Shown here piece by piece: positions 9,377 through 63,463 of a DNA stretch of 64,000 nucleotides. Source of the DNA: Streptomyces hiroshimensis (lineage in GTDB: Bacteria > Actinomycetota > Actinomycetes > Streptomycetales > Streptomycetaceae); the NCBI RefSeq assembly GCF_014650335.1, contig NZ_BMUT01000010.1, positions 186,001 through 250,000 on the forward strand, written 5' to 3'. The notes beneath the pieces are model-generated. The model did no database searches, was not told where the DNA came from, and saw only the letters and a program-made list of their open reading frames with translations. The position numbers were made by a program, and so were the translations under genes. The first letter of the stretch is position 1; each line of letters begins with the position of its first letter.

Positions 9377-10264
9377 GTGGGCACCGGCATCGAGATCGTG
9401 CACGGCTTTCCGCACATCGAGACGGTGCGCGCCGCGATCACCGCGCTGTACAAGCGCCTCTCCTACGACACGGTGCACACCTTCGGGCTCAGCGTGCCCC
9501 CGTCCGACGTGGCCTTCTCCGACGAGGAGAATCCGTATCTCGGCGTGCAGCGCGTCGCCGGCGCGATGGTGCGGCACCTGCGGCTGCCGGACGCCCGGAT
9601 GATCGTCAGCTTCCGCGAGATGCGGCACGCGGGCAGCGTCGAGCTCGCCGCCGGGCCGGAGTACTTCATCGAGCTCAACTCCCGCTTCAAGAGCCACCGC
9701 AGGGACATCGGCGCGGCCCTCTCGCACGAGGTCATGCACGTCTACCTGCACCGGCTCGGCCTCGCCTTCCCCGGCACGCGGGACAACGAGATCCTCACCG
9801 ACACCGCGGCGGCCTACCTGGGGGCGGGGTGGCTGCTGCTGGACGCCTACCGCGAGTCGTCGGTCTCCACGCAGAAGCTCGGTTACCTCACCCCGGAGGA
9901 GTTCGGCTACGTCCTCGCCAAGCGGGCGCTGGCCTTCGGGGAGGACCCCTCCCCCTGGTTCACCAGCCCCCAGGGGTACGAGGCCTATGTGAAGGGCCTG
10001 GCCGAGGCCCGGCGCGACGGCCGGCGGCCCCCGCTCGCGGCGGCCGGGCGGCTCGGCCGCCACCGCTACGCCCGCGACCGGCGCGCCGTCCAGCACGCGA
10101 GGCTCAGCCCGCCGTCCGACCTGGGCTACGCCTTCGAGGGCCACGACCCGCTGCGGGTCAGCTTCCCGTGCCCGACGTGCCACCAGCGCATCCGGGTGCC
10201 GGTACGGGGGAAGGTGCGAGCACGGTGCGGGCTTTGCCGCACCGTGCTCGAGTGCGATACGTAG
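9377..10264 (+). CDS. Putative zinc metallopeptidase-like protein with C-terminal zinc ribbon
   Basis: 295 residues, family not recognised. A metal-binding HExxH helix is present near residue 120 (SHEVMHVYLH), followed about 20 residues later by NEILTDTAAAYLG, where an Asp or Glu could be the third zinc ligand as in gluzincin or SprT-like enzymes. The C-terminus (CPTCHQRIRVP ... CGLCRTVLEC) is a four-cysteine zinc ribbon. No signal peptide, so it is probably cytoplasmic. I place the start at the GTG at 9377 (VGTGIEIVHGF) behind an AGGGGG stretch; an upstream GTG at 9326 would add 17 low-complexity residues. It faces the trypsin gene divergently. A perfect hairpin lies inside its last codons. 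Confidence 0.68.
   Translation: MGTGIEIVHGFPHIETVRAAITALYKRLSYDTVHTFGLSVPPSDVAFSDEENPYLGVQRVAGAMVRHLRLPDARMIVSFREMRHAGSVELAAGPEYFIELNSRFKSHRRDIGAALSHEVMHVYLHRLGLAFPGTRDNEILTDTAAAYLGAGWLLLDAYRESSVSTQKLGYLTPEEFGYVLAKRALAFGEDPSPWFTSPQGYEAYVKGLAEARRDGRRPPLAAAGRLGRHRYARDRRAVQHARLSPPSDLGYAFEGHDPLRVSFPCPTCHQRIRVPVRGKVRARCGLCRTVLECDT
10217..10250 (+). terminator. Perfect 14-bp inverted repeat inside the 3' end of the metallopeptidase-like gene
   Basis: CGAGCACGGTGCGG and its exact complement are separated by the 6-nt loop GCTTTG, ending 14 nt before the stop codon. The repeat encodes the second CxxC knuckle of the zinc ribbon. A stem this strong could act as an intrinsic terminator or 3'-end stabiliser overlapping the coding region; no T-run follows. 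A weaker hairpin (GGACGC / GCGTCC, around 10292-10313) follows in the gap to the convergent lipoprotein gene. Confidence 0.5.
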
Positions 10265-24446: not shown

Positions 24447-25364
24447 TCAGACCTTCTTCGGTTTGGGGGACCCGTCCGTCAGAGACGAGTCACCGTCACC
24501 CCCCGGCTTGGCCGGGGAAGCCGGTTCCTCACCGGCTTCCCCGATGACCCCCGGCTCCACCACAAGCTCCCGCCCGGGGCACCGCTTCGCGGAGATGACC
24601 ATGTAGACGACCGCCGCGATGAAGACCACGATCGACGTCCACCCGTTGAGCCGCAGGCCCAGCACATGGTGCGCATCGTCCACGCGCAGGTACTCGAACC
24701 AGAAGCGCCCCACCGTGTACGAGGCCACGTACAGCGCGAACGCGCGCCCGTGCCCGAGGGTGAAGCGGCGGTCCGCCCAGATCACCAGGCCCGCGATCAG
24801 CAGGCACCACAGCGACTCGTACAGGAACGTCGGGTGGTAGGTCCCCGCCACCCGCCCGATCGCCGGGTCGGCGTCGATCTTCAGGGCCCACGGCAGGTCC
24901 GTCGGCTTGCCGTAGAGCTCCTGGTTGAACCAGTTGCCCCAGCGGCCGATCGCCTGGGCGACCGCGAGGCCGGGGGCGAGGGCGTCCGCCCAGGCCGGCA
25001 GCGGGATGCCGCGGCGGCGGCAGCCGATCCACGCGCCCACCGCGCCGAGCGCGACCGCGCCCCAGATGCCGAGGCCGCCCTCCCAGATCTTGAAGGAGTT
25101 GACCCAGTCGCGGCCCTCGCCGAAGTACAGCTCGTAGTCGGTGATGACGTGGTAGAGCCGGCCGCCGACGAGCCCGAAGGGCACCGCCCAGACGGCGATG
25201 TCGGCAACCGTCCCGGCCCGTCCGCCGCGGGCGAGCCAGCGCCGGTTGCCCAGCCAGACCGCCACGAAGACGCCGATGATGATGCAGAAGGCATAGCCGC
25301 GCAGCGGGACCGGTCCGAGGTGGATCACGCCGGTCGACGGGCTGGGAATGTATGCGAGTTCCAT
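24447..25364 (-). CDS. lgt: Prolipoprotein diacylglyceryl transferase
   Basis: 305 residues, about seven membrane helices. Lgt attaches diacylglycerol to the lipobox cysteine of prolipoproteins at the outer face of the membrane. The family signature GRWGNWFNQELYG (~150) is intact, including the essential Arg and Asn, and the HPTFLYES motif follows. The C-terminal ~40 residues (EEPASPAKPGGDGDSS) are a hydrophilic tail typical of actinomycete Lgt. The window encodes at least one clear client, the lipoprotein at 10319-11395. It lies between the DsbA-like gene and the VIT gene on the same strand. Confidence 0.96.
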   Translation of the reverse strand: MELAYIPSPSTGVIHLGPVPLRGYAFCIIIGVFVAVWLGNRRWLARGGRAGTVADIAVWAVPFGLVGGRLYHVITDYELYFGEGRDWVNSFKIWEGGLGIWGAVALGAVGAWIGCRRRGIPLPAWADALAPGLAVAQAIGRWGNWFNQELYGKPTDLPWALKIDADPAIGRVAGTYHPTFLYESLWCLLIAGLVIWADRRFTLGHGRAFALYVASYTVGRFWFEYLRVDDAHHVLGLRLNGWTSIVVFIAAVVYMVISAKRCPGRELVVEPGVIGEAGEEPASPAKPGGDGDSSLTDGSPKPKKV

Positions 25365-26222: not shown

Positions 26223-26238
26223 ATCCCCCTACAACGAA

Positions 26239-26265
26239 CCGGGGGCGCACCATGCGCGCCCCCGG
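26239..26265 (-). terminator. Hairpin between trpA and the DsbA-like gene
   Basis: Ten-bp inverted repeat CCGGGGGCGC / GCGCCCCCGG with a 7-nt loop, in the 64-nt gap after the trpA stop. On the minus strand it is followed by TTCGTTG. It probably ends or attenuates the trp transcript. Confidence 0.65.
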
Positions 26266-26286
26266 TCGCCGGTTCCTTCAAAAGAG

Positions 26287-31098: not shown

Positions 31099-32625
31099 CT
31101 AGGCGAGACGGTTGGCGGTGTGCACGGCGCGCAGCACCGCCGCCGCCTTGTTGCGGCACTCCGCGTCCTCCGCCGCCGGGTCGGAGTCGGCGACGACACC
31201 CGCGCCCGCCTGGACGTAGGCGGTGCCCTCCTTCAGGACGGCCGTGCGGATGGCGATGGCGGTGTCGGAGTCCCCGGCGAAGTCCAGGTAGCCGACGCAG
31301 CCGCCGTACAGGCCGCGGCGGGACGGCTCCAGCTCCTCGATGATCTGCATGGCGCGCGGCTTGGGCGCGCCGGAGAGCGTGCCGGCCGGGAAGCAGGCGG
31401 TGAGCACGTCGAAGGCGGTGCGCCCGGCGGCCAGGCGGCCGGTGACCGTCGAGACGATGTGCATCACGTGGCTGTAGCGCTCGATCGACATGAAGTCGAC
31501 GACCTCGACGCTGCCGGGCTCGCAGACCCGCCCCAGGTCGTTGCGGCCGAGGTCGACGAGCATCAGGTGCTCGGCGCGCTCCTTGGCGTCGCCGAGGAGC
31601 TCCTCGGCGAGCGCGGCGTCCGCCTGCGGGGTGGCCCCGCGCGGCCGGGTGCCGGCGATGGGGTGCACCATGGCCTGCCCGTCCTCGACCTTGACGAGCG
31701 CCTCCGGGCTGGAGCCGACGACGTCGAACCCGTCGAACCGGAACAGGTACATATACGGACTCGGGTTCGTCGCCCGCAGCACGCGGTAGACGTCGAGCGC
31801 GGCGGCCGTGCAGGGCGTCTCGAAGCGCTGCGAGGGCACGACCTGGAAGGCCTCGCCGGCGCGGATGCGCTCCTTGATGTCCTCGACGGCCGCCATGTAG
31901 TCCGGGCCGCCCCAGCGGGCGGTGTAGCCGGGCAGCTCGGAGGGCGGCAGGGCGGTGGGGGCCGAGGGCGCGGGGCGGTGCAGGTCGGCGGCCATCGCGT
32001 CCAGGCGGGCGACGGCGTCGGCGTACGCCTCGTCCACGCCGGTGTCGAGGTCGTTGTGGTTGATCGCGTTGGCGATCAGCAGGACGGTGCCGTTCCAGTG
32101 GTCGAGGACGGCGAGGTCGGAGGTGAGGAGCATGGTGAGCTCGGGCAGGCCGAGGGGGTCGCGGTCCTCGCCGCCGTGCTCCCCGATCTTCTCCAGGCGG
32201 CGGACGACGTCGTAGCCCAGGTAGCCCACCATGCCGCCGGTGAAGGGCGGCAGTCCGGCACCCTCTATGAGGTCGCGCGGGGTGTGCAGGGCGGCCACGG
32301 TGGCGCGCAGCGCCTCCAGCGGGTCGCCGTCGGTGGGGACGCCGACGGGAGGGGTGCCCAGCCAGTGGGTGCGGCCGTCGCGCACGGTGAGGGTCGCGGC
32401 GCTGCGGACGCCCACGAACGAATAGCGCGACCAGGTGCGGCCGTTCTCCGCGGACTCCAGCAGGAAGGTCCCGGGCCGTTCGGCGGCGAGCTTGCGGTAC
32501 AGGCCGACGGGGGTGTCGCCGTCGGCGAGGAACCGCCGGGTGACCGGGATGACCCGGCGGTCCTTCGCGAGCGTGCGGAAGGTGTCGGCGTCCGGGGTGA
32601 TGTCACCGGTGGTCGTGGCAGCCAT
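31099..32625 (-). CDS. trpE: Anthranilate synthase component I
   Basis: 508 residues, chorismate-binding enzyme that forms anthranilate with ammonia supplied by a TrpG subunit. The feedback-inhibition motif [16 protein letters not shown] (~55) is present, so tryptophan inhibition is expected. Catalytic motifs in the C-terminal half include [41 protein letters not shown] and [15 protein letters not shown]. No trpG or trpD is in the window, so its partner is encoded elsewhere. It follows hisI by only 11 nt, linking histidine and tryptophan genes in one transcript. Confidence 0.96.
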
Positions 32626-34639: not shown

Positions 34640-35176
34640 ATGGCGTACACCAGCAGATCCGCCCACTCCGCCCCCGCGTCCGCGCCGCCCTCGGCCGGCT
34701 TCTCCCTGGGGATCCTCCTGCTCCGGATGATGCTCGGCATCATCATGGTCGCGCACGGCACGCAGAAGCTGTTCGGCTGGTGGGACGGGCCGGGCCTCGA
34801 CGGGACGGCGAAGGGCTTCCAGCTCTGGGGCTATCCCGCGCCCAAGGCGATGGCCGTCATCGCCGGCCTCAGCGAGGCGCTGGGCGGCGCCGGCCTCTTC
34901 CTCGGCCTCCTCACCCCGCTCGCCGCGGCCGCCGTGCTGGGCACGATGGTCAATGCGCTCGGGGTGACGTGGGACGGCGGGTTCCTGCTCCCGAAGGGCG
35001 TGGAGTTCACCCTGCTGGTCGCCGTCTCGGCGGCGGCGCTCGCCCTCACGGGCCCCGGCAGGTACGCGGCGGACGCCCACCTGCCGGTGCTGCGGCAGCA
35101 CCGGCTGTCCTACGGGGTCGGCGCGATCGCCCTCGCCCTGGTGACGGGGGCGATCTTCCTGCTGATCCGTGACTAG
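34640..35176 (+). CDS. DoxX-family membrane protein
   Basis: 178 residues with four to five helices. The first helix region LLLRMMLGIIMVAHGTQKLFGWW is the DoxX signature, including the conserved HGxQKL(F). GLSEALGGAGLFLGLLTPLAA is the second conserved segment. DoxX proteins occur in membrane complexes linked to redox or thiol stress and to oxidoreductases, without a single assigned reaction. The ATG at 34640 follows GAAGAGG. It ends the rightward group and is convergent with hisF across a gap filled by an inverted pair of repeat elements. Confidence 0.87.
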   Translation: MAYTSRSAHSAPASAPPSAGFSLGILLLRMMLGIIMVAHGTQKLFGWWDGPGLDGTAKGFQLWGYPAPKAMAVIAGLSEALGGAGLFLGLLTPLAAAAVLGTMVNALGVTWDGGFLLPKGVEFTLLVAVSAAALALTGPGRYAADAHLPVLRQHRLSYGVGAIALALVTGAIFLLIRD

Positions 35177-36084: not shown

Positions 36085-36482
36085 GTGCTCGTTGCTCCTC
36101 GGTACGCTTCCAGCTCTACTTCGACCAGCACGCGCGAGTCGACGAAGCCGGAGACGACGACCAGGGTCGCCGCCGGGCGGACCGCGTCGAAGAGCTCCTT
36201 GTGGGCACGGCCCACCTCGTCCACGTCTCGCGCGTGGGTCAGATACATCCGGGTGCGGACGACGGCCTCGGGGCCGAGGCCGAACCGCTCCAGGGCGGCA
36301 AGGGCGTTGCCGAAGGCCGATTTGGCCTGTTGGTACGGATCGCCCTCGCCGTTCAGCACGGTGCCGGTGAACGGCATGGTGCCGGACACCAGCACCCGGT
36401 CTCCCGCCGCGACGGCGCGCGCACAACCGAAGGCCTCTTCCCAGGGACTGTCGCTCTGCACACGCTGCACGGCTTCGGTCAT
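36081..36482 (-). CDS. RidA-family protein in the his operon
   Basis: 133 residues, RidA/YjgF/UK114 fold: [11 protein letters not shown] in the first half, [44 protein letters not shown] and the C-terminal [10 protein letters not shown]. Canonical RidA hydrolyses reactive enamine/imine intermediates using an Arg near the end; here the corresponding position is in VVRTRMYLT. It is tightly embedded: its start overlaps priA and its end overlaps hisF, both as ATGA. That suggests it clears a reactive intermediate or by-product of this pathway, but this is inference. Confidence 0.9.
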
Positions 36483-37207
36483 ACGGACACAGCCTCCAGG
36501 GCCTCTTCCAAGGTGAACGCCTTGGCGTAGAGGGCCTTTCCGACGATGGCGCCTTCGACACCCTCCGGTACCAGGTTGGCGATAGCCCGCAGATCGTCAA
36601 GGGAGGAGACCCCGCCGGAGGCGACGACCGGCTTGTCGGTGGCCGCGCAGACGTTCTTCAGCAGCTCCAGGTTGGGGCCCTGGAGGGTGCCGTCCTTGGC
36701 GATGTCGGTGACGACGTAGCGGGCGCAGCCCTCGGAGTCGAGGCGGGCGAGGGTCTCGTAGAGGTCGCCGCCGTCGCGGGTCCAGCCGCGGCCGCGCAGG
36801 GTGGTGCCGCGGACGTCCAGGCCGACCGCGATCTTGTCGCCGTGCTCGGCGATGACCTTGGCGACCCACTCGGGGGTCTCCAGGGCGGCGGTGCCGAGGT
36901 TGACGCGGGTGCAGCCGGTGGCGAGGGCGGCGGCGAGCGAGGCGTCGTCGCGGATGCCGCCGGACAGCTCGACCTTGATGTCCATGGCCGCGGCCACCTG
37001 GGCGATGAGCTCGCGGTTGTCGCCGGTGCCGAACGCGGCGTCGAGGTCGACCAGGTGGAGCCACTCGGCGCCCGAGCGCTGCCATTCCCGCGCGGCGGCG
37101 AGCGGCTCACCGTACGACGTCTCGGAGCCGGACTCGCCATGGACCAGCCGGACGGCCTGCCCGTCACGGACGTCGACGGCGGGGAGCAGTTCGAGGCGGT
37201 GCGTCAT
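36479..37207 (-). CDS. priA: Bifunctional phosphoribosyl isomerase A (HisA/TrpF activities)
   Basis: 242 residues, (beta/alpha)8 isomerase. The two catalytic aspartates are in [15 protein letters not shown] (~11) and [15 protein letters not shown] (~130), with phosphate loops SGGIRDD and [10 protein letters not shown]. In Streptomyces this protein, PriA, isomerises both ProFAR (histidine) and phosphoribosylanthranilate (tryptophan). The conserved [13 protein letters not shown] region and Arg residues fit PriA rather than monofunctional HisA, and no trpF is seen near trpC, trpB or trpA. Overlaps ridA by 4 nt; hisH ends 77 nt upstream. Confidence 0.94.
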
Positions 37208-37283
37208 GAATACGACCTTACGGTGGAGGTACGAACGGGCTGGGCGCCGCGGGCCGTCGGCGCGGGGACGGAGAGGTGGCGGG

Positions 37284-37928
37284 TCACAGCGTTCCCAGCC
37301 AGTTGCGGAGCAGCGTCGCACCGGCGTCGCCGGACTTCTCGGGGTGGAACTGGGTGGCCCACAGCGGGCCGTTCTCCACGGCGGCCACGAAGGGCTCGCC
37401 GTGCGTGGCCCAGGTGACCTTGGGGGCGCGGATGTTGGGGTTGGTCACCTCCAGGCTCCACTCGCGCACCGCGTAGGAGTGCACGAAGTAGTAGCGGGTG
37501 TCCGCGTCGAGGCCGGCGAAGAGCTGCGAGTCCTCGGCGGGGGTGACGGTGTTCCAGCCCATGTGCGGGACGACGTCCGCCTTGAGGGGCTCGACGACGC
37601 CGGGCCACTCGTCCAGGCCCTCGGTCTCCACGCCGTGCTCGATGCCGCGCTCGAAGAGGATCTGCATGCCGACACAGATGCCCATCACCGGGCGGCCGCC
37701 GGAGAGCCGGCGGCCGACGATCCAGTCGCCGCGGGCGGCGCGCAGGCCCTGCATGCAGGCCGCGAAGGCGCCGACGCCGGGGACGAGGACGCCGTCGGCG
37801 TTCATGGCCTTCTCGTAGTCACCGGTGATCTCGACGTCCGCGCCGACGTGGGCGAGGGCGCGCTCGGCGGAGCGGACGTTGCCGAAGCCGTAGTCGAAGA
37901 CGACGACCTTCTTCTTCGGGGCGCTCAT
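37284..37928 (-). CDS. hisH: Imidazole glycerol phosphate synthase, glutamine amidotransferase subunit
   Basis: 214 residues, class-I amidotransferase supplying ammonia to HisF. The catalytic triad is visible: Cys in [13 protein letters not shown] (~85), then His and Glu in [12 protein letters not shown] (~190). The oxyanion strand PGVGAF (~50) is also present. The ATG overlaps the stop of the small membrane protein by ATGA. Confidence 0.97.
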
Positions 37929-38092
37929 GACCACAGTCCTTCGATCCGGAGGGTGCCGGCGGCCAGGCACATCGCGGCGCCTATCCCGAGCAGCACGATG
38001 ATGCCCTTGGGCATGCCCTGCTTGAGGAAGGAGATGATGCCGCCGACCAGGAACAGGCCGACGACGATGAGCGTGGTGTTCAGGCCGTTCAC
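37925..38092 (-). CDS. Small two-helix membrane protein inside the his operon
   Basis: 55 residues beginning [19 protein letters not shown], from the GTG at 38092. Two hydrophobic helices (~4-21 and ~30-48) are joined by a short loop with FLKQGMPKG. No family with known function is recognised. Its start overlaps the hisB stop (GTGA) and its end overlaps the hisH start (ATGA), so it is translated as part of the histidine operon. It might anchor or tune the pathway, or simply be a passenger. The longer frame upstream reads into hisB and is not protein-like. Confidence 0.78.
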
Positions 38093-38682
38093 AGGGCGCC
38101 CTTCGTGGAGGGGAGGATTCCGGCGGCGCGCGGGTCGCGCTCGCAGGCATAGCGCAGGGCCCGGGCGAGGGCCTTGAACTGGCACTCCACGATGTGGTGG
38201 GCGTTGCGCCCGTACGGGACGTGCACGTGCAGGGCGATCTGCGCCTGTGCGACGAAGGACTCCAGGATGTGCCGGGTCATCGTCGTGTCGTACGCGCCGA
38301 TCATCGGCGCCATGTTCTCGGGCTCGGTGTGCACCAGGTAGGGGCGGCCGGAGAGGTCGACGGTGACCTGGGCGAGGGACTCGTCCAGCGGGACCGTGCA
38401 GTTGCCGAAGCGGTAGATGCCCACCTTGTCGCCGAGGGCCTGGCGGAAGGCGGCGCCCAGCGCGAGGGCGGTGTCCTCGATGGTGTGGTGGGTGTCGATG
38501 TGCAGGTCGCCGTCGGTCTTGACGGTGAGGTCGAAGAGGCCGTGGCGGCCGAGCTGGTCGAGCATGTGGTCGTAGAAGCCGACCCCGGTCGACACGTCGA
38601 CCTGCCCGGTCCCGTCGAGATCGATCTCGACGAGGACGGAGGTCTCCTTGGTGGTGCGCTCGACGCGCCCAACGCGGCTCAT
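38089..38682 (-). CDS. hisB: Imidazoleglycerol-phosphate dehydratase
   Basis: 197 residues, manganese-dependent dehydratase. Metal-binding histidine motifs are intact: [13 protein letters not shown] (~40), [14 protein letters not shown] (~70), ARALRYAC preceded by [12 protein letters not shown] (~165). It is the monofunctional form with no phosphatase domain. The ATG overlaps the hisC stop by ATGA. Confidence 0.97.
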
Positions 38683-39803
38683 GTGTTGCTCTCCTTGCGA
38701 ATGGCGCGTACTGCGTCCAGGAAGGCGTCGTTCTCCTCGGGCGTGCCCGCGGTCACCCGCAGCCACCCCGGTACGCCGTTGTCCCGTACCAGGACCCCGT
38801 GGTCGAGGATGGCCTGCCAGGTGGCGTGGCTGTCCTCGAACCGGCCGAACTGGACGAAGTTGGCGTCCGAGTCGGTCACCTCGCAGCCCATCGCGCGCAG
38901 CTCGGTGACCAGGCGGTCGCGCTCGCCCTTGAGCTGTTCGACGTAGCCGAGCAGGGTGTCCGTGTGTTCCAGGGCGGCCAGCGCCGTGGCCTGGGTGACG
39001 GCCGACAGGTGGTACGGCAGGCGGACGAGCTGGACGGCGTCGACCACGGCGGCGTCCGCGGCGAGGTAGCCGAGCCGCAGCCCGGCCGCGCCGAAGGCCT
39101 TGGACATGGTGCGGGAGACGACGAGGTTCGGGCGGCCCTCGATGAGCGGCAGCAGCGAGGGGCGGTGGCTGAACTCGCCGTACGCCTCGTCCACGACCAC
39201 GAGGGAGGGCCTGGCCGCCTGCGCGGCCTCGTACAGCCGCAGGACCGTCTCCGCCTCGACCGCCGTGCCCGTGGGGTTGTTGGGCGAGCAGACGAAGACG
39301 ACGTGCGGCCGGTGCTCGGCGATGGCGCGCTCGGCCGCCTCGACGTCGATGGTGAAGTCGTCGCGGCGGGGGCCGGAGATCCAGCCGGTGCCGGTGCCGC
39401 GCGAGATCAGGGCGTGCATCGAGTACGAGGGCTCGAAGCCGATCGCGGTGCGGCCGGGGCCGCCGAAGGTCTGCAGCAGCTGCTGGAGGACCTCGTTGGA
39501 TCCGTTGGCGGCCCAGACGTTCGCCGTGGTGACCTCGTGGCCCGCGGTGCGGGTGAGGTACTTGGCGAGCTCGGTGCGCAGCTCGACCGCATCCCGGTCG
39601 GGGTAGCGGTTGAGGTGCCGGGCGGCCTCGGCGACGCGCTCGGCGATGCGGGCGACGAGGGGCTCGGGCAGCGGGTAGGGGTTCTCGTTGGTGTTCAGGC
39701 GTACGGGCACGTCGAGCTGGGGGGCGCCGTACGGGGACTTGCCGCGCAGCTCGTCCCGGATGGGGAGATCGTCAATACGGGTTTCATGCGTCACGTGCGT
39801 CAC
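38679..39803 (-). CDS. hisC: Histidinol-phosphate aminotransferase
   Basis: 374 residues, fold-type I PLP aminotransferase. Substrate and cofactor motifs: [15 protein letters not shown] near the N-terminus, [37 protein letters not shown], and the PLP lysine in [17 protein letters not shown]. The GTG start at 39803 ([11 protein letters not shown]) overlaps the hisD stop by GTGA. A second in-frame GTG three codons later is possible. Confidence 0.96.
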
Positions 39804-41137
39804 TTGCCGTCCGGAACCTTCCAGTCGAACCTCGCCTTGACGGCCGCGCCGTGGGCGGGCAGGTCCTCGGCCTCCGCGAGCGTCACCACGTGGCCCGCGA
39901 CCTCGGCCAGGGCCTCCCGGGTGTAGTCCACGACGTGGATGCCGCGCAGGAAGGTCTGGACGGAGAGGCCGGAGGAGTGGCAGGCGCAGCCGCCGGTGGG
40001 CAGCACGTGGTTGGAGCCCGCGGCGTAGTCGCCGAGCGAGACGGGGGCGTAGGGGCCGACGAAGATCGCGCCGGCGTTCTGCACACGGGCGGCGACGGCC
40101 GCGGCGTCGGCGGTCTGGATCTCCAGGTGCTCGGCGCCGTAGGCGTCGACGACGGCGAGGCCGTGATCGACGGAGTCGACCAGGACGATGCCGGACTGGC
40201 GGCCGCCGAGCGCGGGCACGATGCGGTCCTCGATGTGCCGGGTCATGGCGACCTGGGTCTCGAGCTCCTTCTCCACCGCGTTCGCGAGGTCCTCCGAGTC
40301 GGTGACGAGGACGGAGGCGGCCAGCGGGTCGTGCTCGGCCTGGCTGATCAGGTCGGCGGCGACGTGCACGGGGTCGGCCGTTGAGTCCGCGAGGATCGCG
40401 ATCTCGGTGGGGCCGGCCTCGGCGTCGATGCCGATGCGGCCCTTGAGCAGCCGCTTGGCGGCCGCGACCCAGATGTTGCCCGGGCCGGTGACCATGTTGA
40501 CCGGGCGGCACTCCTCGGTGCCGTAGGCGAACATGGCGACGGCCTGGGCGCCGCCCGCCGCGTACACCTCGTCGACGCCCAGCAGCGCGCAGGCGGCCAG
40601 GATCGTCGGGTGCGGCAGGCCTCCGAAGTCCGCCTGGGGCGGGGAGGAGACGGCCATGGAGGCGACGCCGGCCTCCTGGGCCGGCACCACGTTCATGATC
40701 ACGGACGAGGGGTAGACGGACCGGCCGCCCGGCACGTACAGCCCGACGCGCTGGACGGGCACCCAGCGCTCGGTGACCGTGCCGCCGGGCACGACCTGGA
40801 CGGTCTTGTCGGTGCGCCGCTGCTCGCGGTGGACGATCCGGGCGCGGCGGATGGACTCCTCCAGCGCGGCGCGCACGGCGGGGTCGAGCTCCTCCAGCGC
40901 GCGGGCGATGGCCTCGGCGGGGACCCGGATCCGGTCGAGCGTGACGCCGTCGAACCGATGCGCGTAGTCGATCAGTGCCGCGGTACCGCGATGATGCACG
41001 TCCTCGCAGATGGGCCGCACCTTCTCCAGGGCGGCCTCGACGTCGAGTTCGGCTCGGGGCAGCAGGTCGCGGTCGATGCCCGCCTCGGGGGAGCCCGGGG
41101 CGAAGGCGGAGCCACGCAGATCGATTCGGGAGATCAC
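39800..41137 (-). CDS. hisD: Histidinol dehydrogenase
   Basis: 445 residues, zinc- and NAD-dependent oxidation of histidinol to histidine in two steps. The signature [20 protein letters not shown] (~240) and following [16 protein letters not shown] carry the catalytic and metal residues; a His pair for catalysis is in [17 protein letters not shown] (~355). First gene of the operon hisDCB-(membrane protein)-H-priA-ridA-F, all joined by 4-nt overlaps except priA. The promoter lies in the 146-nt divergent gap, where a long palindrome is found. Confidence 0.97.
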
Positions 41138-41174
41138 ACGGTAATTGTCTCAGACCCGTCCCGTCGCACGGCGC

Positions 41175-41197
41175 CCCGTACCACTCAGTGGTACGGG
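41175..41197. promoter_or_regulatory. 23-bp palindrome in the hisD divergent gap, candidate operator
   Basis: CCCGTACCACT-C-AGTGGTACGGG: perfect 11-bp arms around a single central base. It is 38 nt upstream of the hisD ATG and 87 nt upstream of the divergent GTG at 41284. Perfect arms with no loop are typical of a dimeric repressor site rather than a terminator. I do not recognise the regulator. Confidence 0.65.
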
Positions 41198-41283
41198 AGT
41201 TTCACCGAGAGTGTTCAATCGGTCACGCGTTTGGGAAAGGGGACAGTGCACCGAGGTGTACGGGACGGGAGGGGGTACGGAGC

Positions 41284-42885
41284 GTGACCGACCCGACGGA
41301 CGGCGACCCGCCGGCGGAGCTGGAGCTGACCGCCCCCGAGCGGGCCATGTGGGAGGCCTTCCGCCGCGGCGGCACCCACGACCTGCGCACCCCCCGCCCC
41401 GAGTGGAACGACCCGCGCGGGCTGCACACGTGGGGGCCCGAGCGCAGCGTGCGGGCCCGCCTCGTGGCCCTCCTCCTGCTGGACGGCCCTCCCCCGCTGC
41501 CGGGCCGCGTCTGCGCCCTCAAGCTCAACGGCGTGCAGATCACCGGCCAGCTCGACCTCTCGGGCGGCACGGTCGTGCCGTACGTCGAGATGCACAACTG
41601 CCGCTTCGAGCAGGAGGTGCTGCTGCCGGAGAGCCACTTCACGACGCTGCGGCTGGTCGCCTGCGCCCTGCCCCGGCTGGAGGCCGCCCGGCTGCGCACC
41701 GAAGGCGATCTGCACCTGCCGCGGTGCGTCGTGCAGCGCGGCATACGGCTGACCGACGCCCAGATAGGCACCGATCTGCTGCTCAACCAGCTCGTGGTGC
41801 GCGCGGACCGGCGCGGGGTGTCCATCGCCGCCGACGGCATCAGCGTCGGGCAGGACCTGCAGGCCGAGATGATGCGCTCGTACGGCGAGCTGAGCATGCG
41901 GGCCGCCACGATAGGGGTCTCGCTGAGCCTGCGCGGCTCCACGCTGAGCAATCCGCAGGGGCGGCGTGCGTTCAACGCCCCGCAGCTGACCGTGGAGCGC
42001 ACGCTCTATCTGACGGGGGCCGGGGTCGGCGGCTATCCGTTCGCCACCGGCACCACTCCCCCGTACGGCATCACCACCACCCCGCAGCACGGCATCCGCA
42101 CCCAGGCCTTCGAGTGCCGCGGCGGGGTGCGCCTCGACGACGGCCGGTTCGGCGACGCCGTCGACTTCAGCGAGGCCCGGTTCGTCCTGGAGTCCGACCA
42201 GGAGCTGTCGCTGCGCCGCGTCCAGACCCCCGAGCTGCGCTTCCTCGGCGAATGGGTCCAGCGGGGGCGGGTGGTGCTCTCCGGGACCCGCGTCTCCAAC
42301 CTGGTCGACCGCTATGCGAGCTGGCCCGGCCCGGGCAGTCTGGTGATGGCCGGCTTCTCCTACGAGACGCTGATACCGCTCGGCCACTTCCCCTTAGGCC
42401 TGCGCCTGGAGTGGGTGGCCGCGGCCACCCCCGAGTACGCCCCCGAGCCCTACGAGCAGTTGGCGGGCGCCCTGCGCGACAGCGGCGAGGACGCCGACGC
42501 GCGGGCGGTCCTGCTCGCCAAGCAGCGCCGCCGCCGCGAGACCCTCCCGCCGGCCGGCAAGGCCTGGGGCTATCTGCAGGACTGGATGGTGGCCTACGGC
42601 TACCGGCCCGGGCGGGCGGCGGTGTGGATGGCGGTGCTGTGGGCTGCCGCCACGGTCTACTTCACCTGGCGGCCCGTGCCGCCGCTCAAGGAGGGCGAGG
42701 GCCCCGCCTGGAACCCCGGGCTCTACGCCCTCGACCTGCTGGTCCCCGTCATCGACCTGGGACAGGGCAACGCCTGGCGGCCCACCGGCGCCGCGCAGTG
42801 GGTGGTCACGGCGCTCATCCTGCTGGGCTGGGTGCTCGCGACGACCGTGGCGGCGGGAGCGTCCCGGCTGCTGCGCCGGCAGTGA
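41284..42885 (+). CDS. Beta-helix-like membrane protein with one TTA codon
   Basis: 533 residues. After an N-terminal helical segment, residues ~75-370 show short repeating strands with periodic small hydrophobics (LNGVQITGQLDLSGGTVVPYVEMHNCRF), as in pentapeptide or right-handed beta-helix proteins. The C-terminal ~110 residues contain two membrane helices (~440-458 and ~500-520), giving a layout seen in Streptomyces proteins often annotated as membrane oxidoreductases without evidence. Codon 371 (42394-42396, in HFPLGLR) is TTA, the codon read by the bldA tRNA, so translation may be limited to late growth. GTG start behind GGGAGGGGG. Divergent from hisD. Function unknown. Confidence 0.75.
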   Translation: MTDPTDGDPPAELELTAPERAMWEAFRRGGTHDLRTPRPEWNDPRGLHTWGPERSVRARLVALLLLDGPPPLPGRVCALKLNGVQITGQLDLSGGTVVPYVEMHNCRFEQEVLLPESHFTTLRLVACALPRLEAARLRTEGDLHLPRCVVQRGIRLTDAQIGTDLLLNQLVVRADRRGVSIAADGISVGQDLQAEMMRSYGELSMRAATIGVSLSLRGSTLSNPQGRRAFNAPQLTVERTLYLTGAGVGGYPFATGTTPPYGITTTPQHGIRTQAFECRGGVRLDDGRFGDAVDFSEARFVLESDQELSLRRVQTPELRFLGEWVQRGRVVLSGTRVSNLVDRYASWPGPGSLVMAGFSYETLIPLGHFPLGLRLEWVAAATPEYAPEPYEQLAGALRDSGEDADARAVLLAKQRRRRETLPPAGKAWGYLQDWMVAYGYRPGRAAVWMAVLWAAATVYFTWRPVPPLKEGEGPAWNPGLYALDLLVPVIDLGQGNAWRPTGAAQWVVTALILLGWVLATTVAAGASRLLRRQ

Positions 42886-49155: not shown

Positions 49156-49192
49156 CGAGGGGCGCGCCCGGAGGATCCGGGCGCGCCCCTCG
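49156..49192. terminator. Perfect 17-bp-stem bidirectional terminator
   Basis: CGAGGGGCGCGCCCGGA and its exact complement separated by only GGA, between the small charged-protein gene and dnaE, which converge here. This is the longest perfect stem with a tight loop that I found in the window. It serves transcripts from either side. Confidence 0.8.
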
Positions 49193-62980: not shown

Positions 62981-63463
62981 TCACAGCGCCTTCGTCATCG
63001 CGCGGTGCGGAATGCCGCTTCCCTCGTCGAACTCGGGCCCGTGGGCCGCATAGCCGAGCCGCTCGTAGAAGCCGAGCGCGTGCGTCTGGGCCTCCAGGTA
63101 GACCCGGGCCAGGCCCAGCCGGCGGGCCTCCGCCTCGACGGCCAGGACGAGCTCGGCGCCCAGGCCCGTGCCGCGCGCGGCACGGGAGACGGCGAGCCGG
63201 CCGAGGACGGCCGTGACGTCGTCCTCGACGCCCGCGTGGCCGTACTTCTTCCGGGCGGGGGCGCCGTGCAGGAAGCGGACCGTGCCGACCGGCCCGGCCG
63301 GGCCCGTGGCCAGGAGGTGGACGGCGTGCGCGTCGTACGCGTCCATCTCCTCGGCCTCCGGGATGCGCTGCTCGGCGACGAAGACCTCGCGGCGCACGGC
63401 GTGGCAGCCGGGCAGCTCGCCGAGGCCGACGACGCGGACCGTTATCCCCTGCGCGGCGCCCAC
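62981..63463 (-). CDS. GNAT-family N-acetyltransferase
   Basis: 160 residues. The GNAT core is clear: REVFVAEQRIPEAEEMD in the first helix pair, VGTVRFLHG (beta4), the acetyl-CoA pyrophosphate loop LGRLAVSRAARGTGLGAELV (R/Q-x-x-G-x-G/A form) and YLEAQTHALGFYERLGYAAHG at the end. Substrate unknown. GTG start at 63463, 4 nt after the pseudouridine-synthase stop, so it is probably co-transcribed with that gene. Confidence 0.9.
   Translation of the reverse strand: MGAAQGITVRVVGLGELPGCHAVRREVFVAEQRIPEAEEMDAYDAHAVHLLATGPAGPVGTVRFLHGAPARKKYGHAGVEDDVTAVLGRLAVSRAARGTGLGAELVLAVEAEARRLGLARVYLEAQTHALGFYERLGYAAHGPEFDEGSGIPHRAMTKAL

Follow-up and report, generated by a model that had tools for sequence, protein, structure and literature searches.

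The 23-bp perfect palindrome upstream of hisD in Streptomyces hiroshimensis is best read as an operator of the hisD operon promoter, with a putative dimeric activator favoured as the protein that binds it. Comparison among relatives gives the operator reading a probability of roughly 0.75. The evidence that carries it is a shorter degenerate core within the palindrome, GTAYCA-N5-TGRTAC, which recurs with at most one mismatch upstream of hisD in 77 of 80 named hisD loci and keeps an almost invariant distance to the promoter. The core occupies 41178..41194 on the minus strand of the window (the whole 64,000-nucleotide stretch of DNA analysed here), with its centre at 41186, and is defined by its profile, its symmetry and this recurrence.

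The palindrome and its genomic setting

The palindrome at 41175-41197 consists of two exact 11-bp arms around a single centre base, and both its sequence and its coordinates agree with the original prediction. The predicted offset of 38 nt from the hisD start is equally correct, with 37 bases separating the site from the GTG codon. hisD (39800..41137, minus strand; TIGR00069, PF00815) is the first gene of the histidine operon and is probably leaderless, its start at 41137 being placed by alignment. Downstream on the same strand, profile matches place hisB, hisH and hisA-trpF (PriA type) at 36479..38766, with true starts unrefined. Because the operon includes a hisA-trpF type isomerase, a switch at the operator would also touch tryptophan synthesis.

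Symmetry of this extent is rare in shuffled sequence. Of perfect inverted repeats whose arms have 11 bases or more and whose loops do not exceed 9, the window contains eight, whereas 40 dinucleotide shuffles of it yield 0.98 on average and never more than 3. The odd-centred kind, with loops no longer than 1, turns up 0.05 times per shuffle on average. The palindrome is real, and a chance origin is unlikely. The seven further repeats lie at 35083-35105, 31589-31610, 63165-63186, 10219-10248, 24513-24543, 26238-26266 and 49159-49189. Terminators or coding repeats may account for several of them. Symmetry by itself is therefore no proof of function, and conservation in relatives is the stronger evidence.

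Conservation of the operator core

The 80 named hisD loci are the best 80 of 452 relatives. The core is exact in 69 of them, differs by one mismatch in 8 and by four mismatches in 3. When the window is included, 77 of 81 sequences carry it with at most one mismatch and with its centre 48-51 bp upstream, specifically 50 bp before the hisD GTG in 48 sequences and 49 bp in 29. The fourth miss in this larger count, L023, has a differently placed start codon and a core 63 bp upstream. The three loci with four mismatches each (L018, L022, L028) have no recognisable operator, and the operator is dispensable in such lineages.

The exact 23-mer is not the conserved unit. It occurs once, in the window's own genome only, and the 17-mer GTACCACTNAGTGGTAC is found in 1 of 295 Streptomyces genomes. 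The expectation that the site would stand upstream of hisD in related species holds for the degenerate core and fails for the 23-mer. Symmetry across the alignment draws the same boundary. Pairs 3 to 8 from the centre, which form the GTAYCA/TGRTAC arms, are symmetric in 77, 77, 62, 72, 76 and 75 of 77 sequences, while pairs 1, 2 and 9-12 are symmetric in just 14 to 29. As judged from this alignment, conservation is confined to two half-sites of 6 bp with a 5-bp gap between them, and the symmetry that the window shows beyond these is a trait of its lineage.

Within the core, pair 5 is T-A in 58 sequences, T-G in 15 and C-G in 4 (the window, L003, L005 and L007). A hisD tree joins the C-G forms and one T-G form (L004) in a group with a support of 0.997, nested within a larger one of T-G and site-less species; some of the deeper nodes have weaker support, as low as 0.66. 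The nesting of C-G forms inside the T-G group suggests that the right arm of the operator was altered earlier than the left in the window's clade. This clade-specific arm change and the three site-less lineages constitute natural experiments.

Promoter architecture

Between the operator and the gene lies the extended -10 box TGAGACAAT (41144..41152, minus strand), whose hexamer, GACAAT at 41144-41149, ends 6 nt before the hisD GTG. A TGNGANAAT-like extended -10 motif is present in 77 of the 81 hisD upstream sequences and ends 6-7 nt before the start codon. A stricter form of the motif is missing from 3 sequences; in the others it stands 7 nt (51 sequences), 6 nt (26) or 21 nt (1) ahead of the start codon. 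Since the box ends so close to the GTG, the hisD mRNA is probably leaderless, with its start predicted from this spacing. Such a leaderless start would leave the palindrome outside the transcript, where it would act as DNA and not as RNA. If transcription starts at the hisD GTG, the core in the window spans positions -57 to -41.

The expected -35 position, taken with a 17-bp spacer (41167..41172, minus strand), reads GCCGTG and has no likeness to TTGACA. Across 78 promoters, with spacers of 15-19 allowed, TTGACA within one mismatch is found in none (chance expectation 0.8) and within two mismatches in 2 (chance expectation 7.4). A generic promoter scan finds nothing. The distance from the core centre to the -10 hexamer is rigid, at 37 bp in 74 of 75 aligned sequences and 36 bp in one. 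A dyad conserved in sequence and held at a fixed promoter position is the pattern of a dedicated dimeric regulator. The weakness of the -10 box was considered as additional support for an activator and dropped, as Actinacidiphila has the site together with a TACACT box.

Proposed mode of control

In the proposed mechanism, a dimeric sequence-specific DNA-binding protein would read the core, whose inverted GTAYCA half-sites together span -57 to -41. The promoter immediately downstream of the operator pairs an extended -10 box with a predicted leaderless GTG start and has no -35 box that can be recognised. Bound at this fixed position, the protein would touch RNA polymerase and, under histidine shortage, switch hisD transcription on. 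Where a -35 box is missing, a site directly upstream of its place and held at constant spacing typically belongs to an activator, so an activator is favoured over a repressor for this operator, which abuts the -35 position at rigid spacing. For the more specific proposal that hisD is activated from the operator when histidine is short, the promoter geometry leaves the odds about even.

The original prediction found repressor control of the histidine operon attractive. Conservation and fixed promoter geometry bear out its operator but not its repressor, since an activator accounts for the geometry no less well. A histidine-responsive repressor, bound just upstream of the -35 position and obstructing polymerase from there, is a possible but less probable reading. 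End-product repression is the usual logic of amino acid operons, and the operator, no more than 5 bp away from the -35 position, has the symmetry of repressor operators. However, both the -10 box and the transcription start fall outside it, and repressors seldom need so invariant a spacing to the -10 box. In addition, the known his repressor family, the TrpR-type HisR (PF01371), is absent from all 61 Streptomyces genomes searched, while the same search finds the E. coli and B. subtilis controls.

The regulator could not be found by gene neighbourhood: no HTH gene common to 10 hisD neighbourhoods from several families was seen by eye in the gene listing. The conserved 17-bp operator at its fixed promoter position offers a direct bait for its regulator. 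In the open literature, most of it judged from listings, no description of this site or of a dedicated Streptomyces his regulator was recognised. The his cluster of S. coelicolor was described in 1990, as cited in PMC10138114, and in PMC1262725 hisD has 0 occurrences.

Copy number within genomes

Of 61 Streptomyces genomes, 45 contain the T-A form of the core, GTATCA-N5-TGATAC, normally as a single copy, and a backwards control pattern has no match in those 61. In a class-wide sample the T-A form is found in 31 of 296 genomes, namely 23 of the 28 from Streptomyces and 8 of the remaining 268. The Streptomyces loci fetched and checked from such pattern matches all lie upstream of hisD (51 of 51), with centres at 49-50 in 47 and at 65 in 4; in these four, whose alignments open at residue 2, the start is possibly misplaced. 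Seven non-Streptomyces loci with the pattern (L157-L163) show no hisD.

With up to one mismatch to GTATCA-N5-TGATAC, eight genomes contain 1-3 sites each, and the hisD site is among them in all eight. GTAYCA-N5-TGRTAC matches 92 of 101 genomes, but the control often matches too, so that part of these genomes are chance matches and 92 is not a count of hisD sites. From this list 24 places were fetched, of which 3 are at hisD (L299, L314, L315) and 21 elsewhere, most of the latter inside open frames of high GC3 by a weak frame test that also flags true hisD sites. Ten further non-hisD places were fetched, nine from the eight-genome search or its genomes and one from the 61-genome search. A multi-gene regulon was rejected. 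The presence of usually one good operator copy per genome points to what is probably a single target operon, and a site with few copies per genome, tied to one pathway, again fits a dedicated dimeric regulator.

Two side observations concern further palindromes and copies. Among the ten further places is a GTATCAGTTTCTGATAC-like palindrome that recurs beside an aldehyde dehydrogenase gene in three genomes (L185, L186 and L187); a TetR gene is within the stretch in two of the three, and the palindrome is perhaps a KstR-type operator. Extra operator copies also occur upstream of the main one, at 24-bp offsets in L109, L108 and L091 and at a 32-bp offset in L057, with four copies in a row in L109. 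Tandem extra copies are present in 6 of 105 species against 3.9 expected, which is no enrichment, and they were rejected as a general trait.

Occurrence outside Streptomyces

In other families, 4 of 69 hisD upstream regions differ from the core at no more than 2 of its 12 positions, where 0.24 would be expected. Three of the four belong to family f20, probably Frankiaceae, and are centred 61-62 bp before hisD. One further f20 sequence has 3 mismatches at the same place, and the other 5 of the 9 f20 sequences match less well. The fourth match is an f22 sequence, 87 bp before hisD. By this comparison an operator-like site occurs in some f20 genomes, and its form 61-62 bp before hisD may mean that the system is older than Streptomyces. 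On this tentative reading, a dedicated putative activator would read about one operator per genome at a rigid position upstream of a leaderless promoter without a -35 box, and in the window's clade the specificity of the regulator may have shifted together with its operator.

Families f19 and f3 (L218-L223, L225, L227; L195-L202) carry other inverted repeats, GTCCgnatgntGGAC-like, at a similar distance to the hisD start. These are perhaps a different operator for the same job. The f19 motif GTCCGNATGNTGGACA is no commoner than its control. When symmetry upstream of the -10 box is averaged over 17 families, the best centre is at 34 bp, about 2.8 sd above the mean. A universal symmetry peak was dropped as a candidate, as 34 bp is the best of 110 positions and is not 37 bp. 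Without a family-averaged peak at 37 bp, no general system is claimed.

Other readings of the site

The original prediction also allowed for control of the divergent gene at 41284..42885 (plus strand), which encodes a 533-aa product with no match among Pfam and NCBIfam profiles. The palindrome sits between the hisD and divergent-gene starts, and a homologue of the divergent gene is detected at 80 of 80 named hisD loci. That the palindrome mainly serves this gene is nevertheless very unlikely: the two starts are as little as 120 and as much as 466 apart in the 79 measurable sequences, whereas the hisD side is constant, and nothing lends the idea positive support. Since the distance to the divergent gene varies widely and the hisD side is fixed, the operator, as read from these alignments, is keyed to hisD, though it may have an additional effect on the divergent gene. 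The gene does have the single in-frame TTA codon that had been predicted. The codon is CTG or CTC in most relatives and TTA in 0 of 79 aligned homologues, for which reason a bldA link via this codon was rejected; bldA dependence of the gene, if any, would be private to this strain or a close group.

Slightly less credible still is the reading of the site as an ARG box with ArgR as its cognate protein. In PMC3293853 (Table 2), S. coelicolor ArgR shifts a hisD-SCO2055 probe in EMSA, with predicted boxes of 5.7 and 4.4 bits, and a GTAT element is common to the half-sites of the operator and the ARG box. Yet 24 of nearly 30 probes are shifted in that study, which reports no significant change of the hisD reporter in contrasts 1 and 4, which compare wild type with argR mutant (PMC3293853). 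A reporter ratio of 2.0 is given for contrast 2, an arginine contrast (PMC3293853). When a matrix built from 16 argC operators is run over 81 hisD upstream regions, the best scores average -1.9, against -0.6 in shuffles, so that ARG boxes fitting argC operators show no enrichment there. A single sequence reaches 12.2, and the best ARG box touching the window's site scores -7.8. The EMSA shift means that ArgR, as a known protein, may contribute at hisD. The window's genome (G000) has three argC-family genes above the curated cut-off, on contigs C12, C19 and C9.

The least probable reading is that the palindrome works as RNA (terminator, T-box or attenuator) or is a chance inverted repeat, for although it folds well as RNA (-25.1 kcal/mol, z -2.5), it lies upstream of the predicted transcription start, relatives do not preserve the symmetry of its centre loop and outer pairs, no terminator-like site was found, an Rfam covariance-model search of 40900-41700 returns 0 matches up to E = 1, in keeping with the predicted lack of a T-box or His leader, and conservation at 77 of 80 loci excludes a chance origin.

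Comparison with known regulatory systems

The operator of the hisD promoter can be set beside several known systems. HisR operators of the TrpR family occur in Firmicutes, some Actinobacteria, Proteobacteria and Synergistetes and, like the site described here, are palindromic DNA upstream of his genes, according to PMC9413887. Their consensus, cacTTTAnnnnnnTAAAgtg (PMC9413887), differs from GTAYCA-N5-TGRTAC. Both this difference and the lack of a PF01371 gene in the 61 genomes speak against a TrpR-family HisR regulon. Corynebacterium glutamicum, likewise an actinobacterium, also places control in front of its hisD operon. According to PMC3896937, that control is a T-box-like leader in the 5' UTR, an RNA element, whereas at the window's hisD no UTR is predicted and there is no Rfam match.

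ARG boxes resemble the operator in being imperfect palindromes of an amino acid regulator (PMC3293853). The argC operators, in contrast, are tandem 18-bp boxes 2 bp apart with mostly TTGCAT and CGTAT half-sites, and the matrix made from them misfits the operator here.

The architecture also shares features with that of activators at promoters with poor -35 boxes, as the hisD promoter likewise combines a symmetric site, a fixed spacing and the lack of a -35 box. It departs from them in position: classical activator sites are centred at -41.5 or -61.5, whereas the centre of the putative hisD operator falls at -49.
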